Below are positions 9,252 to 64,000 of a stretch of 64,000 nt of DNA, piece by piece (positions within the stretch are counted from its first letter, which is position 1; every line of letters starts with the position of its first letter). Both the position numbers and the translations under genes were made by a program. Source of the stretch: Ziziphus jujuba (lineage: Eukaryota > Streptophyta > Magnoliopsida > Rosales > Rhamnaceae); assembly GCF_031755915.1 (NCBI RefSeq), contig NC_083387.1, positions 9,693,001-9,757,000 on the forward strand. Direction: 5' to 3'. The notes under the pieces were generated by a model. That model was not told where the DNA came from. It was given only the letters and a program-made list of their open reading frames with translations, and made no database searches.

Positions 9252-10560
9252 AAGAGGTGTCATGTGGCTCGGTTCTTTATTATTATATTTTTGGCGCTAA
9301 TTTTAACAACTGTATTGTTCTTAAAAGTTTTAGCCACAAACATCCCAAACTTAGACAAAATAATCTTATCTGACTCAAACACTAAACAAAAATCATGTTT
9401 GCTCTGTAGCGATCCAGATACCAGTTTCTTATGAATGTCTGGAACATACAGTACATTATTTAGAGTCAACTCCTTTCCAGAGGTTATCTTCAGGATTACT
9501 TTACCTTCACCTTGGATTTCTAAAATGGCGAAGTTACCCATGAACAACTTCTCCCCATTCTTCTTTGGTTCGAAGGAAGTGAACATGTTCCTATCTGAAC
9601 ACATGTGGCAGGTCGCACCAATATCTACACACCACTCTCTAGGATTAGATCCCACCAAGTTCACCTCAGAGATCACAATGCTAAGGTTAATGCCATCAAC
9701 CTCTCGAGTGATGTCCTCCATCATCTGTGTCTTTTTGTTCCTCTTTCTCTTCGACAGCCTACATTCTGTATCTCTGTGACCCCATATTGTCACAGTTAAA
9801 GTCCTGTCTTAAAACTTGGCATTCTTGGAGATTCCTCCTTTAGGCCCCAACTTGGAATCTTTTCCAGTTTTCTTCTTATTCTTGGAGCTCTGACTATGCT
9901 CCACAACATTAGCCTTCACCACAGCCTTTAAGGATCTTTTATTAGATTTCTTGTTGTCATCTTCTGTGTGAAGCTTGTTAACAAGAGTCTCCATATCCAT
10001 CTCCTTTCTCTTGTGCTTGAGATGATTTCTGAAGTCTCCTAAACTAGGAGGTAGCTTCTCAATCATAGAAGCTACTTAGAAGGCTTCATTAATTATTATA
10101 CATTCCACAAGAAGTTCTTGAATGATCACTTGCAGCTTATGGACTTGACTCATTAATGGCTTGGTATCCACCATCATGTAGTCCAAGAATCGGCCTATAA
10201 CAAACTTTTCGAATCCATTATTTTTAGTTTTGTACTTCTTGTCCAGTGTTTCTCACAATTCCTTTGTTGACTTCGTGCCACAGTATACTCCGTACAGGGC
10301 ATCAGACAGGCCATTCAGGACGTAATTCCGACATAGATAATCAGAATGGTTCCATGCCTCCATAGCCATGAGTGTCTCTTTATCACTCTCTTCATTGCTT
10401 GGTGGAGTATCTTTGGTTATGAACCTTGCAAGTCCCAGCGTTGTCAAGTAAAACAACATCTTCTACTGCCACCTTTTAAAGTTTGCTCCATTGAACTTCT
10501 TAGGTCTCTTTGTGTGATTAATAGAAGAAGGCATTTGAATCCTAGGAGTCTAAGTGGGCA
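9252..10560 (-). pseudogene. Ty1/copia retrotransposon gag-protease remnant
   Basis: Reading from high to low coordinates, the minus strand shows three blocks in order. First, gag sequence FNGANFKRWQ, then (past a stop) KMLFYLTTLGLARF, near 10440-10500. Next, gag helical sequence at 9809-10066 with lysine-rich stretches, followed by the end of a zinc knuckle, GHRDTECR. Last, an aspartic-protease block, WCVDIGATCHMCS, where the usual DSGA is changed to DIGA. Downstream the frame reads NNVLYVPDIHKKLVS, the conserved post-protease motif of copia pol, and homology ends near 9252. Stops and frameshifts separate the blocks. The integrase and reverse transcriptase parts are missing, so the copy is dead. 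Confidence 0.85.
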
Positions 10561-19110: not shown

Positions 19111-20464
19111 AACAATGTCAAGCAATATCACAAACAAAATTTCTACAAAAGCAAGATTAATAAAACCCAACGAACTTAACCTACGATTAAAATGAAAAAA
19201 AAAAAAAAACCCACCTTATGTCTTTGCCAACCAAAAAGAAAAAAGAAACTCACCTAAATGATGGAGACAAAGAAAGAAGAAATCCAGAAAATCACGAGGG
19301 TGACACAGAGAAATCCAGCTTCCTGGCCGACGACAACGTAAGCAAATGAAAAATGAAACCCAAAATATCTCACTCTTCAAGTCTCTATTAGATTGCTTCC
19401 AAATCTAATATCTATGAGGTAGTGTACTTAATGTAGTTTTAAAAAAGAAAAGGGATTCAAAGGAGCACCTAAAAATTTTAAAACGCGGTAAAAAATTTCA
19501 AAAAATGGCAAAAACGCATCTTTTCTCCCAATTGCATTTTTTTTTCTTTGATTAATTTTTTTATTTTTCATCTACAAATAAAAACTGAAAATATTTCTTA
19601 AAAATGCGAAGCAAAATATCAAAGATTGCTGTTTATTTTTCTGTTTTTCAAGTACACCTTTATTCTTTATAAATTTGCATGTCTTTCAAAATTTTTGTTT
19701 TTTTTTAATTGGGAGAACAGGCGACGCATTCTCTTCAAGAAGGGTCATCTGTTCTTGAATTGTGCAATCAAGCGACGCACTATGGGCAAAAAGTGTCGCC
19801 TGTTTCGTTTTTTATATTTTTTTTATAATCTTTAAATAATTTTTTAATTGTTCATCTACAAATATATTCATGTAGCAATCCAATGAACATAAATTCCATT
19901 GATCTAAAAATAGAAAATAGTTTTGTTGATGCTCTTCTCAGTTATTCACATATATGTGTACAGACGAGACACAAAATATCTCAAGACCTAATTTAAGATA
20001 GGGTACCGAATATAGAATTCTAATTCAACAAGCATTTACTGACCGATTTATCTAGATAAGTATGTTAAATGAGCTTAACTTTCATGTGTTTGTGGTCAAT
20101 GATAGTTTACTTGTTTTTAAAAATTGAAAGTCTATTAAATTTCTTTTTTTAAAAAATAAATAAAAAAAATTGAAGGAACAGGCGATGCAATTCCATTAAA
20201 ACGCATCGCCTACTCCATGTTTTTTTTTAATCTTTAATTACTTTTGTTGATTGCTCATCTACAAATTAAAAAAAAAAAGCATATTTGAAAAATTAAAAAA
20301 TTACTAAAAACAACTTTCAAATTGAAAAAAAGTTAAAAATTGATTGGGTGAAACGGCGACGCAGTTGTTTACAAATGCATTGCCTTTTTGTCTATTTGGC
20401 GACGCATTCTTAAAATAATGCATCGCCTAACATTATATTAGCTAGTTCTTATTATATTATTACA

Positions 20465-21870
20465 TCCAAGTCATTTGGCCTGGTGGTGTGGTGATTGTTT
20501 GAGAGTGTAGGAGGTCTTGGGTTCAATTTTTATTATGGCCCTATTTTGATTTTATTTATTTTTATGGGTTTCTAAATGTTTAAACAAAAAAATTGAAAAA
20601 AAGAAAATGAAAAGGCAACGCATTTGTTGAAGAATGCATCACCTTTTTATCTATTTGGCGATGCATTCTTAAAATAATGCGTCACCTAACACTATATTAG
20701 CTAGTTCTTGTTGTTTTATTACATTCAAGTCATTTGGCCTGATGGTGTGGTGATTACTTAAGAGTGTAGGAGGTCCTGAGTTTAATTTTTATCATGGCCT
20801 TATTTTGATTTTATTTTTTTTATGGGTTTCTAAATGTTTAAACAAAAAAATTGAAAAAAAAGAAAAGAAAAGGTGATGCATTTGTCGAAAAATGAGTCAC
20901 CTTTTCATCTATTTGGCAACGCATTCTTAAAATAATGCGCCGCCTAACACTATATTAGCTAGTTCTTGTTGTATTATTATATCCAAATCATTTGGGCTGA
21001 TAGTGTGGTGATTACTTGAGAGTGTAGGAGGTCTTGGGTTCAATTTTTGTCATGGTCCTATTTTGATTTTTTTTTATAGGTTTCTAAATATTTGAACAAA
21101 AAAATTGAAAAAAAAGAAAAAGAAAAGGCAATGCATTTGTTGAAGAATGAGTTGCCTTTTCATCTATTTGGCAACCCATTCTTAAAATAATGCGTCGTCT
21201 AATACTATATTAGCTAGTTCTTGTTGTATTATTACATCCAAGTCATTTGGTCTGGTGGTGTGGTGATTGCTTGAGAGTGTAGGAGGTCCTGGGTTCAATT
21301 ATTCTCATGGCCCTATTTTGATTTTATTTAAGGCAAACAAATGGCAGCACCTGGGTAAGAGTGCAACTACTAGCGCACAATCAAAACTTTTTTATGAGTT
21401 TTTAAATGTTTAAACAAAAAAATTGAAAAAGAAAAGAAAGAAAAGGCGATGCATTTGTTGAAGAATATGTCTCTTTTTCATCTATTCGGTGACTCATTCT
21501 TAAAATAATGCGTCGCTTAACACTATATTAGCTAGTTCTTATTGTATTATTATATCCAAGTCATTTGGCCTGGTGGTGTAGTGATTGCTTGAGAGTGTAG
21601 GAGCTCCTGGGTTCAATTCTTGTCATGATCCTATTTCGATTTTTTTTTTTGGGTTTCTAAATATTTAAATAAAAAATTTTTTTAGAAAAAAGGAAGGAAA
21701 AGGCGACGCATTTGTTAAATAATGCATCGTCTAACACTATATTACCTAGTTCTTATTATATTATTACATCTAAGTCATTTGGCCTGGTGGTGTGGTGATT
21801 CCTTGAAAGTGTAGAAGGTCCTGGGTTCAATTCCTGACATGGCCCTATTTGATTTTTTTTTTTATGGGTT
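20465..21870 (+). repeat. Tandem array of six ~255-bp units with tRNA-like A/B boxes
   Basis: Six units begin with a word like CATTTGGCCTGGTGGTGTGG at about 20472, 20731, 20988, 21243, 21562 and 21776. Each has a box A-like TGGCCTGGTGG and, about 43 bases on, a box B-like GGTTCAATTCC. The spacing fits an internal RNA polymerase III promoter as in tRNA-derived SINEs. Each unit ends with a GCGACGCATT...AATGCGTCGCC inverted repeat. Unit 4 carries an extra segment near 21330-21386. Confidence 0.8.
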
Positions 21871-40734: not shown

Positions 40735-42500
40735 AAAAACGACATTAATAAGTGAAAGCATTCAATTTGTAGTTGCTGGAAAAAAATAGCATAGGTTTCA
40801 TCAGTAATTACCGAAGCCCCTATGGTAATCATATTTTACCAATTTTTTGGCCCCCACTAGTCCCCTAATGTGTGTTAAATGCAAAAACATGCAAACTATA
40901 CATTCTTCAATGATCCTAAAGAGAAAAAACCCCAAAAGTTTTGAAGAATTTCTCAAATTGGCACAAAAATATGATTACTGTATGGCGTTCGGTAATTACC
41001 GATGAAACCTACGATAATCAATTTGTAGTTGCTGGAAAAATTACCGTATGTTTCTTTGGTAATTACCGAAACCCCTATGGTAATCACATTTTACCAATTT
41101 TTTGGCCCCTACAAGTCCCTTGATGTGTGTCAAATGCAAAAACATGCAAAATATACATTCTTCAATGATCCTAAAGAGAAAAAACCCCAAAAGTTCTGAA
41201 AACATTCTCAAATTGGCACAAAAATTTGATTACCGTGAGGCCTTCGGTAATTACCGATGAAACTTACAGTAATCAATTTGTAGTTGCTAGAAAATTACTG
41301 TAGATTTCATTGGTAATTACCGAAACCCCTATGGTAACCACATTTTACCAATTTTTGGCCCCCATAAGTCCCCTGATGTGTGTTAAATGCAACAACATGC
41401 AAAATATATATTTTTCAATGATATTAAAGAGAAAAAACCCCAAAAGTTCTAAAAAAGTTCTCAAATTGGCACAAAAAAAATTGATTACTGTAGGGCCTTC
41501 GATAATTACCAATGAAACCTACAGTAATCAATTTATAATTGCTGGAAAATTACCGTAGGTTTCATCGGTAATTACCGAAACCTCTATGGTTTATCACATT
41601 TTACCAATTTTTGGGTCCCACAAGTCCCCTAATGTGTGTTAAATGCAACAACATGCAAAATATACATTCTTCAATGATCTTAAGGAAAAAAAACCCCAAA
41701 AGTTCTGAAAAAGTTCTTAAATTGGTATAAAAATTTGATTACCATAGAGCCTTCGGTAATTACCGATGAATCCTACGGTAATCCATTTGTCCTTACTTGA
41801 AAAATTACCGTAGGTTTAATTGGTAATTACCGAAACCCCTATGGTAATCACATTTTACCAATTTTTTGGCCCTCACAAGTCCTTTAATGTGTGTTAAATG
41901 CAAAAACATGCAAAATATACATTTTTCAATGATCCTAAAGAGAAAAAACCCAAAAGTTCTAAAAAGGTTCTCAAATTGGCACAAAAATTTGATTACCATA
42001 GGGCTTTCGATAATTACCGATGAAACCTACATTAATCAATTTGTAGTTGCTGGAAAAATTACCATAGGTTTCATCGGTAATTACCGAAACCCCTATGGTA
42101 ATCATATTTTACCAATTTTTTTTCCCCCACAAGTCCCTTAATGTGTGTCAAATGCAAAAACATGCAAAATATACATTTTTCAATGATCCTAAAGAGAGAA
42201 AACCCTAAAAGTTCTGAAAAAGTTCTTAAACTGGCACAAAAATTTGATTACCGTAGAACCTTAGATAATTACCGATGAAACCTACAGTAATCAATTTGTA
42301 GTTGCTGGAAAAATAACTGTAGGTTTCATCGGTAATTACTGAAACCCCTATGGTTATTACATTTTACCAACTTTTTGGCCCCCACAAGTCCCCTAATGTG
42401 TGTTAAATGCAACAACATGCAAAATATACATTTTTCAATGATCTTAAAGAGAAAAAACCCAAAAAGTTCTGAAAAAGTTTTCAAATTAGCACAAAAAGTG
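40735..42500 (+). repeat. Seven tandem ~255-bp units with TCGGTAATTACCGA palindromes
   Basis: The word TTACCGAAACCCC recurs at about 40808, 41063, 41317, 41572, 41827, 42080 and 42336, a period of 253-256 bp. Each unit has two sites resembling the perfect 14-bp palindrome TCGGTAATTACCGA, one followed by AACCCCTATGGTAATCA, the other by TGAAACCTACGGTAATC. The array follows the MULE transposase tail and may be its terminal region. Open frames inside are repeat artefacts. Confidence 0.9.
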
Positions 42501-51380: not shown

Positions 51381-54300
51381 TTATTGGTCAGTGGAAACAC
51401 TTTTGGCGGCAACTTCTTCATTAGCCTTAGAGTTTTGGTCATCATTTTGCTTACCATGGTATATGGGAATCAAGGATGATGGATCGATAAATTGTCTATT
51501 TTGGTTACCATGGTAAATGGGAATCAAGGACGATGGATCGATAAATTCTCCATTTTGGTTACCATGGTAAATGGGAATCAAGGACGATGGATCGATAGAT
51601 TTTCCATTTTGTTTACCCCGGTAAATGGGAATCAAGGATGATGGATCAACAGATTGTCCATTTTGGTTACTATGGTAAATGGGAATCAAGGACGATGAAT
51701 CGACAAATTGTCCATTTTGGTGGTTACCACGATAAATGGGAATCAAGGAAGACAGATCAACAGATTGTCCGTTTTGAGTACCACGGTAAATGGGAATAAA
51801 GGATGATGGATCAACAGATTGTTCATTTTGGTTACCATGATAAATGGGAATCAAGGATGATGGATCAACAGATTGTCCATTTTGGTGGTTACCGCGGTAA
51901 ATGGGAATCAAGAATGATGGATCGACAGATTGTCCACTTTGGTTACCACGGTAAATGGGAATTAAGGAAAATGGATAGACATATTTTCCATTTTGGTGGT
52001 TACCGCTTAATGGGAATCAAGGATGATGGATCGACAGATTGTCCATTTTGATTACCACGGTAAATGGGAATCAAGGACGATGGATTGACAGATTGACCAT
52101 TTTGGTTACCACGATAAATGGGAATCAAGGACAATAGATCAACAGATTGTCCATTTTGGTTACCCCGGTAAATGGGAATTAAGGATGATGGATCCACAGA
52201 TTGTCTATTTTGGTTACCACGGTATATGGGAATTAGGGACGATGGATAGACAGAAAGGCCATTTATATTTCCAGGTATATGGGAATAATGGATGATGGGT
52301 CAACAGAAAAGCCATTTTTGTTTCCAAGGTATATGGGAATAAAGGACAATGGGTCAAATGATTGGCCATTTTGGTTTTCGTGATATATAGGGATAATGGA
52401 TGTTGGATCTACAAAAAGACCATTTTTGTTTCTGTGGTATATGGGAATAATGGATGATGGATCGACAGATTGATCTTTGGCTACATCCTTCCCATTTTGG
52501 TTTTTGTGGTATATAGGAATATATGATGAGTAATCAACAGAAAGATCTTTGGCTACTTGCTCCACCATAGTCTTGACATATTCAGCAGGCTCTTTCCTTG
52601 CTATGATGGTCCTTGACAACTGCAATAAAAATATATAAAAGTAATAATCAAAGTGTCAGGACCTTTTCAAAATTCCTTCCCGGAACTCTAGACAAATTCT
52701 AATCCCAGAGAGACCCTACCGAACCGTCCTATGGAAAATCCGGCAGCATCTCCCCTAAGGGTAAAATATGTCCAAAATTTACGTGCATGAAAATGCACTC
52801 CTATATACTACCACCTTATCTCTCCCACCTTACTACAAATAAATTCCATAAAGACAGCAATTCGATAACAAATTAAATATAATATATATATATATATACC
52901 ACGGAAATAATTTACTAAGTAAACAACCAAAATATACCATCATAGGTTCATGACTGCCCACACTACCCACTTAGTGCAGCAAATCTCAAATACATTTCAC
53001 ATCGTTTTAAAAATATACCAATGTGTAATATAGAAAGAAAGATAAATTAACTGCTATATCAACAATAATAATAATACCAACCATTTAATGCTAATAATGA
53101 TATTAATATAACTTGTCCAAGGCTATAAACAGTCATCCCACATGCCCAAAGGCTATCATATAACCACACCTGTCCAAGGGCTATCATACTCGCTCGATGG
53201 CTGTCACTTATCCAAGGACTATCATACTTGCCCGATGGCCATATTTCTCACCCATTGGTTGTGATATTTGTTCAACGCTACAGTATGAAAATCACGATAA
53301 TAATAATAAAATAAAAATAAATAATGACAATAATAATAATAATAATAATAATAATCATCATCATCATCATAAATGATGATGATGATGATAATATTAGTAA
53401 TAATGAAAATAATTGTAAACATAATTCTGATAAATAATAATTGTACTATTAATAACGAGAATAATATTAATAATAGTAATGACAATAAAAGTAATTAAGT
53501 ATAATGTTAGAAAATCAGGTTATGAATAGATAGAATAGTATGAGGTCAAATAATATTTTAAATTCAAAATATATTATGAAATAAGTCCTCGTATGAGGGG
53601 TACAAATGATACCCTCTAACATGCTGTGCAATCCATGCTTCCAGCTGTCGCTGGTACCCTGCTACCAATACAGTCTGAGATGGTTGCTTAGATTGGCCGT
53701 CCAATCCCCTGAACTCGTAGGCAACATAGTTAGAGGCTAGCCTTTCATGGACCACATCGGATCGCTGTCCCCGTACAGTGTGATCCATACAAATATAAAA
53801 TACATATATATATATATATATACAAAAGATCCTTGATGCACATACTATATACCAATGGTGTCCTACGATGTCCAGCGTCCCAAAGCACCATCTGACGGAG
53901 AGGTTAAAGAGAGAAACCAGCATACGGTCCCGTGGCGTCCCATCGCACCGCTGCTTAAACCGTCATCCCGGACATGGAGGGGGGCGGTTATGGCTAATAT
54001 CAAACTTGCATGCCCTCCATCCGATTGCAACTCACGGGAGATATTACAACCTGCGCGCTAATCACATCCACATCCACCTACACGCTAATCACATCCACAA
54101 CTACAAAACACCGGTACGTGTATGGTGTATCGAAAACCGATAAAAATATTTTATAATATTATAAAATATAGAATTTTGATAAAATATAATCAAATCGTAC
54201 ACCCTTACCAGTTTATAAAATTTCATGCTCTCTTGTAATTCATCATCAAATACATCAGATTAAATATTTCAATTCCTATCACCAAAATACCAAGTCATAG

Positions 54301-54563
54301 CATACATAATTATTAAACACATAAATACATTTTAAATATCTTTTAATTAAATATTTCCTTCAAATCCATAAAATTGATTTGCACCAAATTAATAATAAAA
54401 GATGCATAAAAATTCATACGGAATTTAAATCACATAATGCATTATTTACATATTAAAATCTCAACATTTAAATCAACAATAGATTTAGTAAATATTAAAC
54501 CATAATTTCATAAAATTAATATCTTCCACAACAATTCAATTTCATATATAATTAAATAATTAA

Positions 54564-54603
<40 letters not shown>

Positions 54604-56429
54604 TATCCCAGTAATTTAATATAATTAATTTCTCAACCTACAAATCAATTCATATTAAATATGGTTCAAACCACATTTATTCAATTCAGCACAATTTGAC
54701 ATCTATAATAAAAATAATAATTATTTAAATATTAAATAGACATTTTTCAGACTATCCTATTAAAATGATAATATTTTATTCAAAAATGGCATCTTTTAAA
54801 ATACTCTACCATAATTTGCAAATGAGATACCAATAGAAAGCTAAAGAGGTGAGAAATACGTTACCAAATTCCGTTGGGCTCAAATCGACCGGCGGTGATC
54901 GGAAAATGGACGGAAAGTTTCGGTCAAAGTTCAATATCTCATATCTCTCAAACAACAAGGAATTGAGCTGAATGGACTTCAAAATTGAGCGCAGAGGGTC
55001 CGAAAATATTAGAAAGGAGTATCAATTTGGCCAGGTGATGATCGGATCGCCGGAAAAACCAAATTTACGATCACCGATGATGGAGGCCCGATCTGGGCGT
55101 GTCACCGGCCGACTGGCTGCCAAATTTGGTGGCCAAGCTCACCGGCGACTAGGATTCACCGGTGCCGGGGCGTGTCTCTTAATGGTGGCTGGAAAATTTT
55201 AAATAGGTAGTGATAGAGAGGTTCGGCGAAGGAGAAGAAGAAGAAGAAGAAAAAAGAAGGGGGCCCCCGTGGTGTTTTTCCACGTGGGGAAAGAAAGAAA
55301 AATAAAGAAAAAGAATAAAAAAGAGAATTAAAAATAAATAAATAAATAATATTAAAATAATAAAATGTTATCATAATAATATAATATATAAAATAATAAC
55401 AAAAATAATATAATATAACATTTACTTCTGGCTGACAGGTTGCATTTTCTCATTATGACACACGGCACCATTAACTAAGTTACACGTGGCATATACTGTT
55501 TATACGTTTAAAAATAATATTAAAATAATATGATATTTGAAAAAACTTTACAGATCCATAACTTTAAAACCATATGTCCGAATCGGGCATGCAGCTAGTT
55601 TACAAACTTGTATCAACGAGTACTTCACAACCATGTATGAGTCAAAACTCAATTTCACAAAAATAAAAAATCAACTTCGGCACCCTCAGACAGTTTAGAC
55701 ATCAACTTGTTTTGCTCATAATTTTCAAACCGTAGCTCCTTTTTGATGTGCTACTAGTCTACGGACTCGTATCAATGCGTACTTCATAATGGTGCCTCGA
55801 TCAACCTAGAATTTTTGCCGAGTCAAAAAGTCAAAGTTTGACCTTTCTTAGTCAACGACGGTCAAACCCAGTCAACCTTGGTCAACATGAGAAAATTTCA
55901 GCGTACTTGGGGATGGGTTGTTACAAAAGTAAATAAATCATTAATCTTTTTTTCTCAATAAAATCAAAAGCATATTGTATATGCATAAATCATGTTAGGG
56001 AATTGGATTTGTAGCATAAGAGAAATGTTACCAACAGAAGTAATATGAGAAGGTCATGAAGAGGGGCAAATATGTATTTTCATCATTAATATCAACTTAA
56101 AAAAAAATGTCTAGTTATTCTTTCCAAGTTGACTGGCATAATAGTCAATAGCTTATCACATAGTACCATCACAAAAAACGGCCTAGTACAAATTTTATAG
56201 CTTTTAGTGATAAATATGTTTTGTTAGCCACAAATCTTAGCGAGAGACGAAAACTTTTTCTTTGCCACAAATACATATTTTTAATGATAATTTTTATGTT
56301 TGTGTCTAAGTGTTTTAATCATATATAGATTAGACTTCTTTTAGTGACATTGTATTAACAAAAAGATGACATTGCGATGCTTACCAGAAGAAGTGAAGAG
56401 AAGGCTAGGAGCGCAAAGAAACTTTTCAT
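51381..56429 (-). CDS. Secreted tandem-repeat protein, candidate cyclopeptide (burpitide) precursor with IPIY cores
   Basis: Exon 1 (56429-56385) encodes MKSFFALLAFSSLLL and ends at a GTAAGC donor. Exon 2 starts at 52619 after TTTTTATTGCAG and continues in phase 0 with LSRTIIARKEPAEYVKTMVE, giving a signal peptide and an ARKEPAEY start like the plant organ-specific/DUF2775 secreted repeat proteins. Then come 20 units of about 18 residues, typically VDPSSLIPIYRGNQNGQS. IPIY is invariant except where a frameshift hits; the preceding residue is Leu, Ile, Phe or Tyr. The tail is acidic and ends STDQ. Exon 2 has two lesions: one base lost near 52273, giving an immediate TAA, and two lost near 52005; together they restore frame. 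The intron holds an LTR. Family and layout are seen; a precursor role for crosslinked peptides is inferred from the BURP neighbour. Confidence 0.8.
51420..52565 (-). repeat. Twenty tandem ~54-bp coding repeats
   Basis: Each DNA unit centres on ATTCCCATATACC/ATTCCCATTTACC, encoding IPIY. Most units are 54 bp; two carry an extra His codon (GGTAACCACCAAAATGG, 57 bp). Units nearest the N-terminus are the most diverged (YIPIYHKNQNG, IIPIYHRNKNG, FIPIYLGNKNG) and the C-terminal ones nearly uniform, suggesting recent expansion at that end. Confidence 0.95.
52654..55925 (-). mobile_element. LTR of the Tekay-like family inside the precursor intron, 3272 bp
   Basis: Ends are TGTCAGGACCTTTTC (52654) and GGGTTGTTACA (55925). 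The 4-bp word AAAG flanks both sides (52650-52653 and 55926-55929). It starts only 31 bp upstream of the exon 2 acceptor, in the opposite sense of genomic coordinates but the same strand as the gene. No internal domain is present, so it is a solo LTR. It carries an imperfect triplet block at 53300-53400. Confidence 0.85.
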
Positions 56430-56512
56430 CTTGATGACAAATTGGGATTTGGAAAAGCTCGAAGTGCTAAGGTGCTTTGTTGCTAAATGATGAAGAGGCC
56501 GTTTTAGTTCAG

Positions 56513-56520
56513 TATTTATA
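56513..56520 (-). promoter_or_regulatory. TATA box of the repeat-protein gene
   Basis: The minus strand reads TCTATAAATACTG, with TATAAATA about 85 bp upstream of the ATG at 56429, a normal distance for a plant core promoter. Confidence 0.65.
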
Positions 56521-56689
56521 GACATACCAAGCATGGGCTATTGATCACTCTACATGTAAAAACAAATATTATATGATCTAAAGTAAAAATTACAAGACAA
56601 CCCCTTAACTTTTGTTTCAATTTGTTCGACAGGTTTAATTTTATGTGCAATTGGTTACTCTCCGGTACTATTCAAATATATATATATAT

Positions 56690-56862
56690 AATTAAAGAAG
56701 ACTTAATGAGGATATTTTCGACTTTTTTAAGTGCTTTTTTTTTTTTTTCCCTTATAACTTCATATATTCGAATACATAAAGAAGACTTAATGAGGATATT
56801 TTCGACTTTTTTAAGTGTTTTTTTTTTTTTTCTTATAACTTCATATATTCGAATACATAACA
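56690..56862 (+). repeat. 84-bp tandem duplication upstream of the precursor gene
   Basis: Two copies of a unit running from AAAGAAGACTTAATGAGG through ATTTTCGACTTTTTTAAGTG to CATATATTCGAATACATA, differing mainly in T-run length. It sits about 175 bp beyond the TATA box, in the possible promoter. Confidence 0.9.
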
Positions 56863-56899
56863 TGTATAAACAATCATAAGTTTTTACATAAGGTATAGT

Positions 56900-58720
56900 A
56901 TTGTGACTTGGCAAGTTGTAAAAGGACTATGCTATTAATTATTTAAAATTAAAAATTTAGTTGGGAAAGTTTTGCCACATTATTGTGTCTTCCATTATAC
57001 ATTAAAAAATATAATTTTTAAAAATCAAATCTATATATAAGAAAATATATAAATATGCTTACCTACGAATCTATTGCCCTCAAGAAAATTAATTTTACAA
57101 GAATAAAATAAAACAAAAATAAAAGACTTTCTGCTTTTGGGCTTTCACATGGAATCCCATGAATTTAAAATATATTTTTTGATTAAGCATTCGCCATTCT
57201 CCTTTTTCTTTCATATTCATATTAATTTAAGTATTTTAGAGCTGATGAAACCAGTTTTGAACTTCTTTTTTCCATTTTTTCTAAGAAAATAATAACCACC
57301 TATCCTAATCTTTTTGAATAGGATTCTTTGTTTGTTTTTCTTCATCCTCGTTTATGTTTTGGCTTTCAATTTTAATGGCCGATTGTGAATTCAATGGTTA
57401 TTATTAAACCATTTTATCAAATAAAAATTTTAAAAAATAAATTTAATTTAAACATATGTTGAAATATATTTGAAATGTTAAAAAAAAAAAATTCAATAAA
57501 GCTCACACCTCCAGTATTTTGAGCAACCAAAGTAGCAATCAAATTAATTGGGAAGGAATTGAAAGCATTAGTTACTCCCAACTCACATCTCAATTAAAGT
57601 TAGCTAAAATATTGGTCACTTTGTTATATTCAAAAAAGTGATGAAAATCAAATTTAACTTGAAATAAATAAAATCATGCACCATTCAATCAAGCTACAAA
57701 AGGATGAATAGAAACCCATCTTGCATGGAATTAACCATAGGAATCCATCTCAAAAAGACCATGAAAGAGAATACCGATTATTCTTGTTCATGAATTAAAA
57801 TATCAAAAGTTAAAACCTATAACTCTTCATTTTAAAAAGTGTATTTTTTAAATTAAAGAATATCTTTAATGATAAAAGTAAAATTTTATTAGATCTTTTA
57901 ACAGGACTCTTTTTATTCTTTTTTTTTTTTTATATAACCTAGACGCATTAATATTGTATACCATAAAATAAAGCAACGAATATATTTAAATTCCCACTAA
58001 GTGGAAAAGAAAATTTCATATAAAAAGTTACCTTATTTCCTTTTCTATTTGAGTTTTTTTTTTTCCCCTTATTTTAGGAGTTTGAGCAACTGTGAGATGG
58101 AGAAAGTAAAACTTTTACAGTATCTCTAATGATGAATGTGAATTGCATTTTTTATAATTTAAAAATTATCATCATATAAAATTTAGGTAATATAAATATA
58201 GATTAAATTACAAAATTATTTTTCAATGATAAGATACAGAATGCTATTTATGATTATTAATTAATAATATATATTTTATCTTTTTTTTTTTTTTTGAAAA
58301 ATTAACTTTTGAAGAAAACTTCACAATATTTGACAGATTTTTAAGAAATAGAAGGTCACTTTGATATTATCTATTTTTTTCTTACCATATTAGTTTGATA
58401 GTTGTCTATTTTTTCAATATGATAAAAAAAAATATAATAATAAACAAAATTATTAAAGATGCTTTTACTATGAGACAGGATATGTGATGGACTCTTGTTT
58501 TTATACTAACCCTTTTAAAATCCAATATAATATCATTTTATAAAATTCTTTCAAATCTATGATTCCTCAAATATCTTTAAATCTTTGTACATTATTATAA
58601 AATCCTAATTAAACACTTCTATATAATCTAACATTATTTCCTTCTTTAAGAACTCTAGAAATGTACAAATCTCATTATTACGGTTGCACAAAGGTAATTT
58701 TCTTTTCTTTAATTACTTTC
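56900..58720. other. AT-rich intergenic stretch, no gene seen
   Basis: Low-complexity sequence between the two divergent genes; no family or transposon ends recognised. Confidence 0.5.
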
Positions 58721-58728
58721 TCTTTTCT

Positions 58729-58829
58729 TCAAAAGGAGTTGAACCCCAAATTCTCAATATCAACGCTGCAAGACTCTTGCGGGCATCAGCAATGGTTCGG
58801 TAACCAGTACAGCGACAGAGATTCCCTGC
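58729..58829 (-). pseudogene. Aldehyde oxidase / xanthine dehydrogenase exon fragment
   Basis: The minus strand reads AGNLCRCTGYRTIADARKSL. This is the second [2Fe-2S] cluster motif (CRCTGYRP) of molybdenum hydroxylases, closest to plant aldehyde oxidases. After a frameshift the frame VDIENLGFNSF continues the family pattern (VDxEDLGxNSFW) and meets a TGA. Only about 100 bp is homologous; the FAD and molybdopterin domains are absent. It is a dead fragment, probably left or carried in by transposition or repair, and unlikely to be part of the neighbouring cassette. Confidence 0.8.
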
Positions 58830-59710
58830 TAAATTAAATACATATAGAGTTCTTTGGATTCCATACAAATATAAATTAAATATTCTTATATTTTAAAACT
58901 CTTTTAAAAGTGTTACAAAATTGAGGAAAAAAATATTAATGTATTAATTAAAATATGAACATTTTTCATAATTTGTAACTAATTAAAACTTAACCGTTTT
59001 GACGCAAAAAGTTATCATAAAAGATATACCAAATTACCAAACAAAGGTATGAATTCAAATAACTATATCCATTAACACAATGAGATGTCCAGTGATCACG
59101 GCCGCTCCTTTTAAAATTAGAATATGTTGGTATTTAAAATAATGTTCCAAACATAATATTATGGGAACCCTCACATACTTCCACCTAAAATACGAAAAAG
59201 GAAATCCAGACGTAAAAATAAAATATATAGGAAATTAAAAAATAAAAAATAAAATAAAACTGACATGGGACTCGCTAAACTTTTTTTTTTCCAATTTGCT
59301 TTGATTATATTATTTTTTATTATTATCTTTTTGAATAAATAAACGTGCTTAATTGTTTGACGCATGATTAATAATTTTACGTCAATCATTACTACAAGAC
59401 AAATAATCGTGCAGTTTTCTATTAACTGGTATTTATCGGACGTTGACATTTCCCAATTTTTATACAATAAATCAAAACTTCCAAAATTGGGAAAAACAAA
59501 AAATTCGACCCCTCCATATGTACGTGCAAGGTAGATTTCTCTTCTATCGTGCTTTTAAATTTATAAATATATATTAGTTTTAACTTTATTAAATTGACAT
59601 ATAATATATTATATTAAGATTTATCGTTATCATTTTTTTTTTGTTAGAAAATAGAGGTTATATAAACATAAAAAATAAAAATTGTTGCAAGAATCAAAAA
59701 ATACATATCA

Positions 59711-59920
59711 CATTATCTCTTTTTATAATTTATATAGTAGTGTAATTAATTTTTTCTTTTCTAGTAAAGAGAGTAACTAAGGCCCTGTTGGTCAATTATT
59801 TTTAAAATAGTTTTCTACATTATCTCTTTTTATATTTTATACAGTAGTGTATTTAATTTTTTCTTTTCTAGTAAAGAGAGTAACTAAGGTTCTGTTGGTC
59901 AATTACTTTTAAGATAATTT
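59711..59920 (+). repeat. Tandem duplication of ~106 bp across the Harbinger end
   Basis: ATCTCTTTTTATA.TTTATA.AGTAGTGTA.TTAATTTTTTCTTTTC and CTAGTAAAGAGAGTAACTAAGG.TCTGTTGGTCAATTA occur twice in tandem, so the left end of the Harbinger-like element is present twice. Confidence 0.85.
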
Positions 59921-60450
59921 TTTATTCTAGAAAATAAAAAATTGTTTCTAAAACAAAAATAGAAAATTTGACCAGCAATTTTCAAAAATAGTTTTTAGAA
60001 AACAAATAAAAAAGAAAACAATAAAATGATGTTTTTATTTGTTTTAGAAATAATAAAATGCATATCGTTTTAATTTGTTTTCTTCATCGTTTTTCTTTAT
60101 TCTGTATTTTTCTATCTTGAAATTTATAGAGAGAAAAAATTATTCCAATTCTTTGGAATATCTTAGAGAGAGAAAGAATATTATGACTTAATGAATATAT
60201 CCAATTAAATTTTTAAATTTTTTTTTCAAATAGAACAACTTAAAAAATAACTATTCCACTTTTTTTTTTTTAAATACTTTGTGAGTTATATCAATTATTT
60301 TATTATTATTATTTTTTATTTTCTTTTCTTTCGTTATATTCATACTCATTTTTTTTTTATCTTATTTCTTTTATCATTTTTTTTTTGGCAAAGATTTTTT
60401 ATATCAATTATTTATTTTGCTATTTTGTTCATTTTCCATTTTTCTTTATC

Positions 60451-60502
<52 letters not shown>

Positions 60503-61572
60503 CTATTTTGTTCTTTTTCCATTTTTCGTTTATCAAATATATATATATATATATATATTCTTATCTATAGTTTTCCATTATTATTATTTTTATTTTCCAT
60601 TTTCTATCATTTTTTTTCTAATTTTCCAATATTTATTGTTTCTTTTTCATTGTTTTATGTTTTTCTATAACATATTCTTTTTTTTTTCCTTATCTCTTTT
60701 TTTTTTTTTAATTTTTCTCTTATCTCCCATTGTATTTATTTATTTTTTTCTTTTTATTGTTTATTTTTGTTTTTATCTTTCCCTTGTACATAACAGTGTC
60801 AAGAAAATCTAAACATGTGGCTTGACAATATTAGTAATATATAAAAGTTAGTAGTTTTATTATTACGCTAATATGAAATTTTGTGGATGTTTATAGTTGA
60901 AAATATTATGTTAGACTTGTAGGATTTAATTTTTTAATTAATACAAAATCCAAAGTTCCAATAGTTATTTTATTCATGTGTACACATTAAATCGATATGC
61001 TTGAAATCCACATCAAAGAATTAATGACATATATTGTATAATATCAATTAGGTTTAAAAATTAATTGATGAAAAAATAATTGACTGATAATGTGGAACAA
61101 TTGTTGGTCATACAAGGAGTGGAAAGACATAGCACTTAAAGGCCAACTATAAATCAATGAAAAATTAAATATATATAATTAAAAAAATGATATTATCTAT
61201 ATATATATATATATATATAATGTGAATGAATTAATAATAATGAACCAAAATTTAAAAGAAAAAAAATGAAAGCATGAAAAAAAAAAAAGTTCCACATACG
61301 GGTATGTAACATGCAGTAAACTTTTAACATTGAGAGAGTTCAAATAGAAAAAAAAAAAAAATTGTTTAAAAATTTTTGATACTATTTAAAAATAATTTTT
61401 GAAAATTGTTTAGCCAAACATGTTCTTTGTCTTTTATTTTTGAAAACTGTTTTCGGACACCACTTATCAAACGTCTTTTGTTCTTATGAAACGAAGGAAA
61501 ACAATTTTCTATTTTCTATTTTGAAAACAATATTTGAAAAACAAAAAACAAAAAATATGACCAAACAAGCCC
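59781..61572. mobile_element. PIF/Harbinger (Tourist-like) element with TAA target duplication
   Basis: Left end GGCCCTGTTGGTCAATTATT; right end, inverted, GGGCTTGTTTGGTCATATTT. TAA flanks both sides (59778-59780 and 61573-61575). Near the ends there are matching AAAACAATTTTC/GAAAATTGTTT words. The 1.8-kb interior has a (CT)n run and T-rich sequence but no transposase, so it is non-autonomous. Confidence 0.75.
60456..60499 (+). repeat. (CT)n microsatellite
   Basis: About 22 CT dinucleotides. With the flanking T-rich DNA it creates long Leu/Ser/Phe open frames that are not genes. Confidence 0.95.
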
Positions 61573-61575
61573 TAA

Positions 61576-62043
61576 CTTGCTAAAAGTTATAAAGGATTCC
61601 ACATGTGAGTGGGGTGTCCTAAAAACCACTCCATAATTTTTTTTTTATTTTTTTTAATAGTTCAAAGTTTTATAAAATCTGAATTGGAGGTAACTACTAA
61701 AAATGATAACTTGGCAAAACTAAACTACTTCATTATTATATCTATGGATTTAAGAGTTATGATTTGAACCTTTAGCAAGTTCTGTTGTTATTTTAGATAA
61801 TTTTATGCCGTTATGTTGCATAATCAGACCTTTAATTAATGCTTATGATACTATCAGAATGTATTTTTAATATACTAAAAAAAAAAGTAATTGTAGGTAT
61901 AATAAATAAATAAAATTAAAATGAATTTACTAATGTTGAACATTGTTTTAAACAATTATAACAAATTTGTATTTTCCTTAATTTAGCAAATTCTTAGTTT
62001 GCAAGCAAATTAGCAATACTAATTCATCTTCAAAGTTGTTGTC

Positions 62044-62074
<31 letters not shown>

Positions 62075-62470
62075 AATATGGAAAATTTCACTTTAATCCT
62101 CTCTATTATATATGTGTATATATATATATATATTTATTTATTTATTTTTCTAAAAATACATCTATGTTTTAAGAGATATATATGTTGTGAAAAACAATTG
62201 ATTATTCATTAAATATATAAAGTTATAACTGTTATTTGTAAATATGTTTGTTTGTATTATATTAAAAAGAGAAAAATGTTTTTTTTTTTTTTTGGATAAA
62301 AAAGTGAAAAGGTTTAAGAAATGTCACCTCGAGTAAAATGGATAATTTAACCAATAATTTGACTAAGAAGGGTGCTAGAGTGAAACAAAAATAAAATCAA
62401 GTGATAGTAAAATTTTTCAAAATAGAACTTGATATTTCTATATATAATTTATCTCGTCGAAACAGAATTA
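61576..62470. other. AT-rich intergenic stretch, no gene seen
   Basis: Contains an (ATT)n run at about 62045-62069 and a (TA)n run near 62110-62131; nothing else identified. Confidence 0.5.
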
Positions 62471-62479
62471 TTGTTACAT

Positions 62480-63060
62480 ATATATATATATATATATACA
62501 CTAGCAAAGTGCTCAGTCATTTAGTAAGCTATTTTGATATCTTACATTAGAGGGTGTAAATGAGGTAAATCAAGTCGAGCATTGACATTTTCAAACTCAA
62601 TTAGCATGATTTGAAGAGTGTTTAAGTTTAGCTTAGCTTGTTCATGAAAAACTCAAACTTAGATCTACTCAAATTGTTATATTATAAAAATTTTAAAACT
62701 TGAATATTTATTCTCTTAAAATATTTTAACATTATTAGATAATAAATTTTAGTTATTCAATTAGTTTTATTATAAAATTAATTTAGTTTTTAAAAAGTTT
62801 ATAAATTTAAAATATAAAAAATATTGTTGATGGACTATAAATACTCAATGTAATTAAATTTATAATGTAATTTTTATATAAATACATATAAATAATAAAT
62901 TTAAGCTACTCAATAAGCTTAATTTATTGTTAAAAATTGGCTTGCAAACTTCATTTTTTGTTGGAGTTTGGTTTGTTTTCTTTACAAGTTGAGTTCGAAC
63001 AAGTTAAATTCGAATTGAGCTTGAGCGAATCAAAAGCTGCTCGAGCTTACTTATAACCTT
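62480..63060 (+). repeat. Dispersed repeat, copy 2 (partner at 8930-9250)
   Basis: Follows a (TA)n run and starts ACACTAGCAAAGTGCTCAGT, then shares AGAGGGTGTAAAT, AATCAAGT.GAG.ATTGACATTTT and TTCATG.AAA.CTCAA.CTTA-type words with copy 1. It extends further, to TCGAGCTTACTTATAACC. Copy 1 lacks this last part. Confidence 0.65.
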
Positions 63061-63102
63061 ATATTATAGTAGTATTAATACTTTATTAATATATCCCATT
63101 AA

Positions 63103-63106
63103 TATT

Positions 63107-63149
<43 letters not shown>

Positions 63150-63150
63150 A
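63103..63150. repeat. Compound (TA)n(TG)n microsatellite
   Basis: (TA)n passes into (TG)n about 220 bp upstream of the BURP start codon. Confidence 0.9.
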
Positions 63151-63280
63151 TAGATTTAATTTAAAATAACCTTTCACTTTAAATAAATAAATTAAAAAAA
63201 AGGAGAAAAAAAAAAAAAAAAAAAGAGCGAGGGAGGAATAATATTTGACAACAGGCCCTTCTCTAAAAGTCTAATTTTTC

Positions 63281-63288
63281 TTATATAT
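63281..63288 (+). promoter_or_regulatory. Candidate TATA box of the BURP gene
   Basis: TTATATAT within CTTATATATCCTCC, about 82 bp upstream of the ATG at 63370. A long A-run and GAGAGAAAG lie between, as in many plant 5' UTRs. Confidence 0.55.
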
Positions 63289-63369
63289 CCTCCTTGACAC
63301 ACTCCCTTATCTAAAAAAAAAAAAAAAAACCAGAGAGAAAGTGTGAGGACGGTGAAGAAAATTAGAAAA

Positions 63370-63493
63370 ATGGCAAAGGGATTTGCTTCTTGTGTTCTTC
63401 TCATCATGTATCTTTCCTTGTTGATGGTAATAATTTAATTTTCATTTGTATTAATATTCTCTTTCTAATATAATTCATATACATACACACACC

Positions 63494-63524
<31 letters not shown>

Positions 63525-64000
63525 TTTAAGATCTAATCAATTTACAATATTTCCCATGTTGAATTAATTCTATTATGCAGTTGTGCAGTACTGGAAATGG
63601 TCATTCCCAGCATCACAACCACCAGCAGGACGGCGGTGCTGATCCCCTGGATGGGGCTAGAAAAGTAGGATTCTTCACTGTGGATGATCTCTATGTGGGA
63701 AAAGTAGTGGGCATTCAGTTTTACACCAGAGACCCTTCTTCTTTACCTCCGTTTCTGTCCAAAGAAGTCGCGGATCGCTTTCCATTTTCAGTAAAAGAAC
63801 TTCCGCTTATTCTTCAGCTCTTCGGGATGGCTCCAGGATCTCCAGAGGCCCAATTAGCTGAGAGGACCCTGAGATTCTGCGCAGACGAACCCATAAAGGG
63901 GGAGCAAAAGACTTGTGCAACTTCCATAGAATCCTTCATCGAATTCGCGAGCTCTATGTTAGGAGGAGGACAATACGGGGTCGATTTCAGAGCTATAAAA
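63370..64000 (+). CDS. BURP-domain protein, candidate split peptide cyclase (5' part, runs off window)
   Basis: Exon 1 (63370-63426) encodes MAKGFASCVLLIMYLSLLM, a secretory signal, and ends at GTAATA. The intron's acceptor is TATTATGCAG (63571-63580); the phase is 0. Exon 2 opens LCSTGNGHSQHHNHQQDGGA, a short His/Gln-rich linker, then enters the BURP domain: VGFFTVDDLYVGK, PPFLSKEVADRFPFS, LRFCADEPIKGEQKTCATS, a canonical start with its first two conserved Cys. 159 residues are in the window; the C-terminal Cys-His repeats that bind copper in BURP peptide cyclases lie beyond it. There are no tandem core peptides between signal and domain, unlike fused burpitide precursors or RD22-like proteins. 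BURP membership is certain; cyclase activity on the neighbouring IPIY precursor is inferred. A polygalacturonase beta-subunit-like or RD22-like role is the alternative. Confidence 0.93.

Follow-up and report, generated by a model that had tools for sequence, protein, structure and literature searches.

Jujube (Ziziphus jujuba) makes medicinal ring peptides known as cyclopeptide alkaloids, whose assignment to genes is only now under way. According to PMC11253845, an earlier study had identified jujube precursor genes co-localised with stand-alone BURP genes, and a pathway has since been reconstituted from a chromosome-9 precursor carrying eleven FPIY and three FLIY cores together with the cyclase ZjuBURP (GenBank PV929269; PMC12871766, a 2026 preprint). 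As reported there, the FPIY product is a 14-membered ring in which the Tyr oxygen is joined to the Pro beta carbon, shown by nuclear magnetic resonance (NMR). A 2-oxoglutarate enzyme encoded on chromosome 1 then decarboxylates the ring, and a methyltransferase encoded on chromosome 4 completes lotusine A. ZjuBURP also cyclised FIPFY, from a chromosome-4 precursor, and a synthetic precursor with five cores is functional in Nicotiana benthamiana (PMC12871766). Jubanine K, a natural product with the FIPFY core, is 13-membered (PMC12871766); ring size can therefore not be read from the core. Here we describe a precursor gene and a BURP gene at the right end of a 64,000-nucleotide stretch of Z. jujuba DNA (assembly GCF_031755915.1, contig NC_083387.1, positions 9,693,001 to 9,757,000), the whole of which is called the window below. 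By sequence, contigs C9 and C4 of this assembly correspond to chromosomes 9 and 4 of PMC12871766.

With a probability of roughly 0.8, we take this pair to be a split burpitide cassette that serves the production of cyclopeptide alkaloids. It is a single unit of a chromosome-9 tandem array, and its precursor is truncated by frameshift in this assembly. The pathway is already in print for jujube, and the pair is a further member rather than something new in kind. Its parts, in window positions, are as follows.

56429-56385, minus strand: precursor exon 1, encoding the signal-like peptide MKSFFALLAFSSLLL, with a GTAAGC donor; the same or almost the same exon occurs in paralogous precursors
52620..56384, minus strand: precursor intron of ~3.8 kb, TTGCAG acceptor, phase-0 splicing
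52655..55925, no strand: repeat element of 3,271 bases within the intron, with ACTTT on either flank; paralogue introns align to both sides of it
52263..52619, minus strand: precursor exon 2 to the first in-frame stop, 118 amino acids, comprising the leader LSRTIIARKEPAEYVKTMVEQVAKD and five cores
52010..52262, minus strand: out-of-frame repeats, of which four have LIPIY cores and a fifth has decayed to IPIK, from frame translations
51381..52009, minus strand: repeats again in the first frame, past the stop, with nine LIPIY-type cores and one FIPIY, then a conserved tail ending KSVSTDQ
63370..63426, plus strand: BURP exon 1, encoding the signal-like peptide MAKGFASCVLLIMYLSLLM; the spliced protein is identical to P0001 over 268 amino acids
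63581..64000, continuing to 64330 (C9:9757330), 330 bases past the window edge, plus strand: BURP exon 2, encoding the core-less BURP domain

The original prediction had posited one secreted protein with 20 IPIY repeats. The repeats and a signal-like exon 1 are indeed present, but not a single frame, which is broken by two frameshifts. The repeats form a 54-base tandem array at 51443-52472, with the minus strand coding and a Tandem Repeats Finder score of 1136. They comprise 19 IPIY copies and one decayed to IPIK; a strict pattern recovers 18, and the two outside it, YPFSLIPIY (the nineteenth) and SSLIPIKR (the decayed copy), were read from frame translations. A chance repeat was ruled out by this score and by the conservation of the cores with an excess of third-position differences. 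Each X-Ile-Pro-Ile-Tyr core of the precursor is preceded by an SVDPSS-type segment. The spliced frame is 15 + 118 amino acids long (a predicted chain of 133) and stops after 5 of the 19 cores, which are, in order, YIPIY, IIPIY, IIPIY, FIPIY and IIPIY. Among the precursor loci compared, YIPIY was found at the window precursor only.

The first frameshift lies at ~52263, where repeat starts are 53 rather than 54 bases apart. The second, at ~52010, restores the frame; as we read the sequence, two bases net are missing there. When each of the three segments is read in its own frame, its repeats differ from one another most often at third codon positions (0.43 versus 0.17 and 0.22 in the first, with five repeats; 0.31 versus 0.10 and 0.12 in the second, with four; 0.21 versus 0.09 and 0.12 in the third, with nine). 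The frameshifts consequently look young relative to the array, which suggests that they are recent. They might instead be errors of the assembly, the gene being intact in the plant: consensus errors are common in repeat arrays, together the two shifts amount to whole codons, and the original frame resumes after the second. However, both shifts lie outside long homopolymers, each has substitutions nearby, and other loci of the array are interrupted as well; we consider this explanation unlikely.

A divergent BURP gene without repeats had been predicted about 6.9 kb away. It starts at 63370, at a distance of 6.94 kb from the precursor, and contains merely a short linker between the signal-like exon and the domain. 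The complete protein has 268 amino acids and matches Pfam BURP at 2e-65 (positions 2-215 of 216). Whether the C-terminus carries the Cys-His motifs was a check set beforehand; all four pairs (CHx10CH...CH...CH) were found once the gene was read past the window edge. Of 32 homologues found, 28 were aligned; both residues of three pairs are the same in all of these, and the first pair has an invariant His and a nearly invariant Cys. Besides P0001 (100%), the best match was FEM48_Zijuj09G0108000 of Ziziphus jujuba var. spinosa (89%). Among solved structures, the peanut BURP cyclase 8sy2/8sy3 was the only relative by sequence (E 7e-15), and an AlphaFold2 model with a mean predicted local distance difference test score of 85 matched four peanut BURP chains only in the PDB at E <= 0.001. 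The root-mean-square deviation is large (6.2-9.0 Angstrom over 222-238 columns); the model thus supports the BURP fold and not the details of the site. A fused, autocatalytic burpitide was ruled out, as the core repeats are not within the same protein as the BURP domain.

The pair accordingly shows the marks of a split burpitide system, namely a stand-alone BURP with four Cys-His pairs and no core, and genomic co-localisation of precursor and cyclase. A separate secreted-type precursor with a repeated recognition segment and cores of 4-5 residues ending in Tyr is present as far as the first five cores, the rest lying behind the stop. The X-Ile-Pro-Ile-Tyr cores put forward can be read in frame for these five; beyond them the frame is broken. 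The Tyr-O to Pro-Cbeta linkage that had been put forward for this locus is the one established for Z. jujuba by NMR, on FPIY and not on IPIY (PMC12871766). By this route, both proteins would enter the secretory pathway, where an array BURP cyclase, either the neighbour or a paralogue, would bind the recognition segment. Its copper centre, with oxygen, would form the bond between the phenol oxygen of Tyr and the beta carbon of Pro. The ring would then be released by proteases, and enzymes encoded elsewhere would decarboxylate and N,N-dimethylate it.

The genome (393.8 Mb, 14 contigs) was searched with the window repeats, which gave at least 41 match rows; five on the opposite strand of the same arrays were left out of the locus count. 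Ten precursor loci (one a fragment) were found on C9, all on the minus strand, and three on C4. The array spans ~9.69-10.23 Mb of chromosome 9, where six plus-strand BURP genes without cores are interspersed among the precursors. Thus, the class predicted for the pair, a stand-alone precursor with a stand-alone BURP, was borne out, but the pair is not an isolated one. The loci are listed below; counts are those of the commonest cores, and interrupted or uninterrupted refers to the exon-2 frame.

9.688 Mb, minus strand: precursor, cores LIPFY 5, IIPIY 4 and LIPIY 3, also FIPLY; uninterrupted
9.744 Mb, minus strand: the window precursor, commonest core LIPIY 13; interrupted
9.781 Mb, minus strand: precursor, AVPFY 9 and AIPVY 5; uninterrupted
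9.834 Mb (L037), minus strand: precursor, IIPIY 7 commonest, WIPIY also present; interrupted, 10 cores before the stop
9.893 Mb, minus strand: precursor, AVPFY 23; uninterrupted, tail altered
9.924 Mb (L039), minus strand: precursor, RFPIY 7; interrupted, 4 cores before the stop
10.044 Mb, minus strand: precursor fragment
10.053 Mb, minus strand: precursor, RWPIY 8; ends without the usual tail
10.138 Mb (L042), minus strand: precursor, RFPIY 11, RFLIY 3 and QFPIY 1; interrupted, 13 cores before the stop
10.222 Mb, minus strand: precursor, FLPIY 10; uninterrupted
C4:9.884-9.979 Mb (L049-L051): three precursors, FVPFY and FIPFY, with FIPLY also on C4; uninterrupted at C4:9.885 and C4:9.978, interrupted at C4:9.896
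9.757 (window), 9.789, 9.858, 9.985, 10.163 and 10.228 Mb, all plus strand: core-less array BURP genes

The leader and repeat layout, and exon 1 where it was found, are common to the ten C9 and three C4 loci; the flanks are kept and the cores vary. Exon 1 was not found in the DNA taken around 9.834, 10.044, C4:9.885 and C4:9.896. On C4, L050 is frameshifted, and L051 carries four FIPFY cores and is matched by both published ZjuPrec-FIPFY primers with 0 mismatches. The 10.138-Mb locus, 0.39 Mb from the window pair, is by its sequence the best fit to the published FPIY precursor, from which it differs by one extra FPIY (in QFPIY) and an internal stop in this assembly. Truncation within the repeats recurs, being seen at the window locus, L037, L039 and L042. 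The six array BURPs share 88-97% DNA identity; the one at 9.789 Mb has lost its first Cys (FH) and its last residues. Eight blocks of 73-90% identity are collinear between the precursor-to-BURP spacers of the window unit and the 9.78-Mb unit; precursor and BURP were therefore duplicated together on one or more occasions. Trees of precursors and BURPs agree in part: the 9.924 and 10.138 precursors are sisters, as are the 9.985 and 10.163 BURPs. Because there are ten precursor loci and six BURPs, and because ZjuBURP also took a chromosome-4 precursor, the pairing of cyclase and precursor cannot be read one-to-one. At the far end of the array, C9:10303000-10304379 (L048) holds a BURP gene with N-terminal repeats of its own (PYITGY, NYITQY and similar), by sequence a candidate for the fused type of burpitide.

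Four observations weigh against an active cassette at this locus. The trees disagree over the window unit itself, its precursor grouping with 9.688 and its BURP with 9.789. A hydrophobic docking residue has been described at position -7 from the core (PMC12186524), and in the window this residue is Q in 12 repeats, K in 1 and E in 1, 14 of 18 in all, and L or F in the remaining 4. At the 10.138-Mb locus this residue is also mostly Q (11/13, with K 1/13 and L 1/13), so that a hydrophobic residue may not matter to the jujube cyclases. The FPIY alkaloid was undetected in the jujube tissues sampled despite the gene (PMC12871766); gene presence thus does not predict product. Finally, the precursor has lost its continuous reading frame, and the 3.3-kb insert has enlarged its intron to ~3.8 kb; the corresponding introns of the paralogues at 9.688 and 9.781 Mb measure ~0.55 kb. 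Pieces of this insert recur across the region, and no terminal repeats were found in it by self-comparison.

The same damage underlies the alternative that the precursor is a dead pseudogene and that the window BURP serves only other array or chromosome-4 precursors. Along with the insert and the two frameshifts, the first of which leaves 5 of 19 cores, this alternative draws on the longer uninterrupted frames at other loci and on the activity of ZjuBURP on a chromosome-4 precursor. Nevertheless, exon 1, both splice sites, the leader and five cores are intact, and five cores suffice in the synthetic precursor expressed in N. benthamiana (PMC12871766). Its mechanism is that of the split-cassette interpretation, the sole difference being the condition of the gene today; we give it slightly less than even odds. 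On the split-cassette interpretation, the window gene is most likely a recently degraded, possibly still usable precursor, and its sequence would fit a gene in decay or else one that yields IIPIY, YIPIY and FIPIY alkaloids in reduced amounts.

Predicted masses were compared with reported alkaloids. The arithmetic reproduces printed values (cyclic FPIY 537.2708 versus 537.271; jubanine K 696.3755 versus 696.3756; PMC12871766). Decarboxylated and dimethylated FIPIY is predicted at 632.3806 with fragments 148.11, 289.19, 261.20 and 344.20. Amphibine D is listed at 632.381, with ions 148, 289, 261, 316 and 344, located in the seed endosperm of Z. jujuba var. spinosa (PMC11885241), and also in Z. 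mauritiana roots with ions 344, 289, 148 and 114 (PMC12299143). FLPIY (10.222 Mb, 10 copies, uninterrupted frame) and FIPLY (9.688 Mb and C4) predict the same ions as FIPIY; since Leu and Ile are indistinguishable, the FLPIY gene is at least as good a source of amphibine D. AVPFY, predicted at 576.3180 with ions 199, 171 and 378, agrees with mauritine A as listed, and LIPFY, at 632.3806 with ions 255, 227 and 378, with amphibine C (PMC12299143). An origin of amphibine E from WIPIY at 9.834 Mb was rejected: the mass fits, but the 114 ion on the list requires Leu or Ile in first position, while WIPIY predicts 187. Mass matching as proof was likewise rejected. Against 19 distinct m/z values from 25 rows of Table 1 of PMC12299143 (rows 6, 7 and 11 dropped, equal values merged), 11 of 30 hand-listed xxPxY cores match, versus 8.25 for position-shuffled cores (p 0.15), a mean of 4.3 for random hydrophobic cores (p 0.002) and 0.6 for random all-residue cores (0/2000). 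The fragment agreement carries more weight than the mass control, though the comparison was made by eye and covers these cases alone. Cyclic IIPIY is predicted at m/z 616.3705 and cyclic FIPIY at 650.3548, each 2.016 below its linear peptide. Decarboxylated and dimethylated LIPIY or IIPIY is predicted at 598.3963 with ions 114.128, 255.207 and 344.197, and YIPIY at 648.3755 with ions 164.107, 305.186 and 344.197; no paper on cyclopeptide alkaloids was matched by a literature search on 598.39.

We tentatively consider a wider proposal, with the odds leaning against it: the chromosome-9 array may be a combinatorial alkaloid locus of duplicated cassettes, in which cores drift in each precursor copy, near-identical cyclases process them all and the window gene is still active. 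The cores would then include AVPFY (mauritine A), F[I/L]P[I/L]Y (amphibine D), LIPFY (amphibine C), FPIY (lotusine A), RWPIY and IPIY. Frameshifts in the repeats would trim the dose rather than kill the gene, the window gene would supply IIPIY, YIPIY and FIPIY alkaloids, and a single locus would explain much of the proline-type alkaloid diversity of jujube. The array in any case supplies a defined set of cores, along with their predicted masses and fragments, for matching genome to metabolome in one crop, and its paralogous precursor/cyclase units are natural replicates for substrate choice by BURP cyclases. The window pair contributes a further precursor that is probably degraded. The most useful results are the map of the array and the truncation of the window precursor.

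A second array lies next door at C9:9.562-9.673 Mb (L010-L021), 20-130 kb to the left of the window, where PF10950 (organ-specific) genes on the minus strand are interleaved with other BURP genes on the plus strand. Several of these PF10950 genes are multi-core, with repeats such as SFEAAPDATIIYNG, that is, Ser/Thr-type xx[S/T]xY cores. The leader of the window-type precursors resembles these neighbours (hhalign probability 92, 20 columns, 40% identity), which would speak for a structural or storage-type organ-specific protein instead of a precursor of a ribosomally synthesised and post-translationally modified peptide. However, PF10950 membership was ruled out, as 0 of 11 genome-wide match rows fell on window-type precursor loci. 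Moreover, the flanks stay while the cores differ among paralogues, and the paralogous FPIY and FIPFY precursors yield cyclic products with a BURP cyclase (PMC12871766). We regard a structural role as very improbable.

The rest of the window (1-51000) holds few genes and many repeats. Just two frames of at least 130 amino acids occur, one being a retrotransposon Pol_BBD piece (9260-9793, minus strand), and large tandem arrays lie at 20383-21329 and 40762-42497. A search of a plasmid collection led nowhere. In cultivar Junzao, a BNM2-type BURP cluster with one 268-amino-acid member lies on chromosome 6 at ~9.05-9.15 Mb (PMC9541082) and may be the same locus under another chromosome number. If so, a methyltransferase that has been reported as a neighbour of a chromosome-6 BURP gene (PMC12871766, PMC11253845) might lie near the array. 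The strings IPIY and AVPFY do not occur in the main texts of PMC12871766, PMC11253845 and PMC11250218; jujube precursors were first catalogued in 2023 (reference 12 of PMC12871766), and that paper may already include the window gene.

Compared with described systems, the window precursor shares with the PF10950 (DUF2775, organ-specific/ST) putative cyclopeptide precursors a secreted-type repeat protein beside BURP genes, similar first 20 residues past the intron and, through the adjoining array, the chromosome; those proteins differ in their xx[S/T]xY-type cores and QPMP leader motif (PMC11991032). The coffee arabipeptin system ArbA2/ArbB2 likewise has a stand-alone multi-core precursor adjoining a stand-alone BURP, but its core is FLWGY, its ring 17-membered and without styrylamine, and its residue at -7 is Phe instead of mostly Gln (PMC12186524, PMC11253845). 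CamB1/CamA of Ceanothus americanus is also a split cyclase system of Rhamnaceae with an SVDPS segment before the core, and substrates with this segment were cyclised in vitro (PMC12186524). There, KDFSVDPSGN or KDISVDPSGN precedes the core and HG follows, whereas KDLSVDYSS and QSVDPSS are found here; the Ceanothus cores (ILLY, FFFY, ILWY) lack Pro and are reported from transcripts only (PMC12186524). ZjuPrec-FPIY/ZjuBURP has in common with the window pair the species, the chromosome, the layout of a repeat precursor co-localised with a BNM2-type stand-alone BURP, the Pro at the crosslink position and the C-terminal Tyr (PMC12871766). In contrast to ZjuPrec-FPIY, the window cores are X-Ile-Pro-Ile-Tyr rather than FPIY or FLIY (PMC12871766), and the window precursor is frameshifted.

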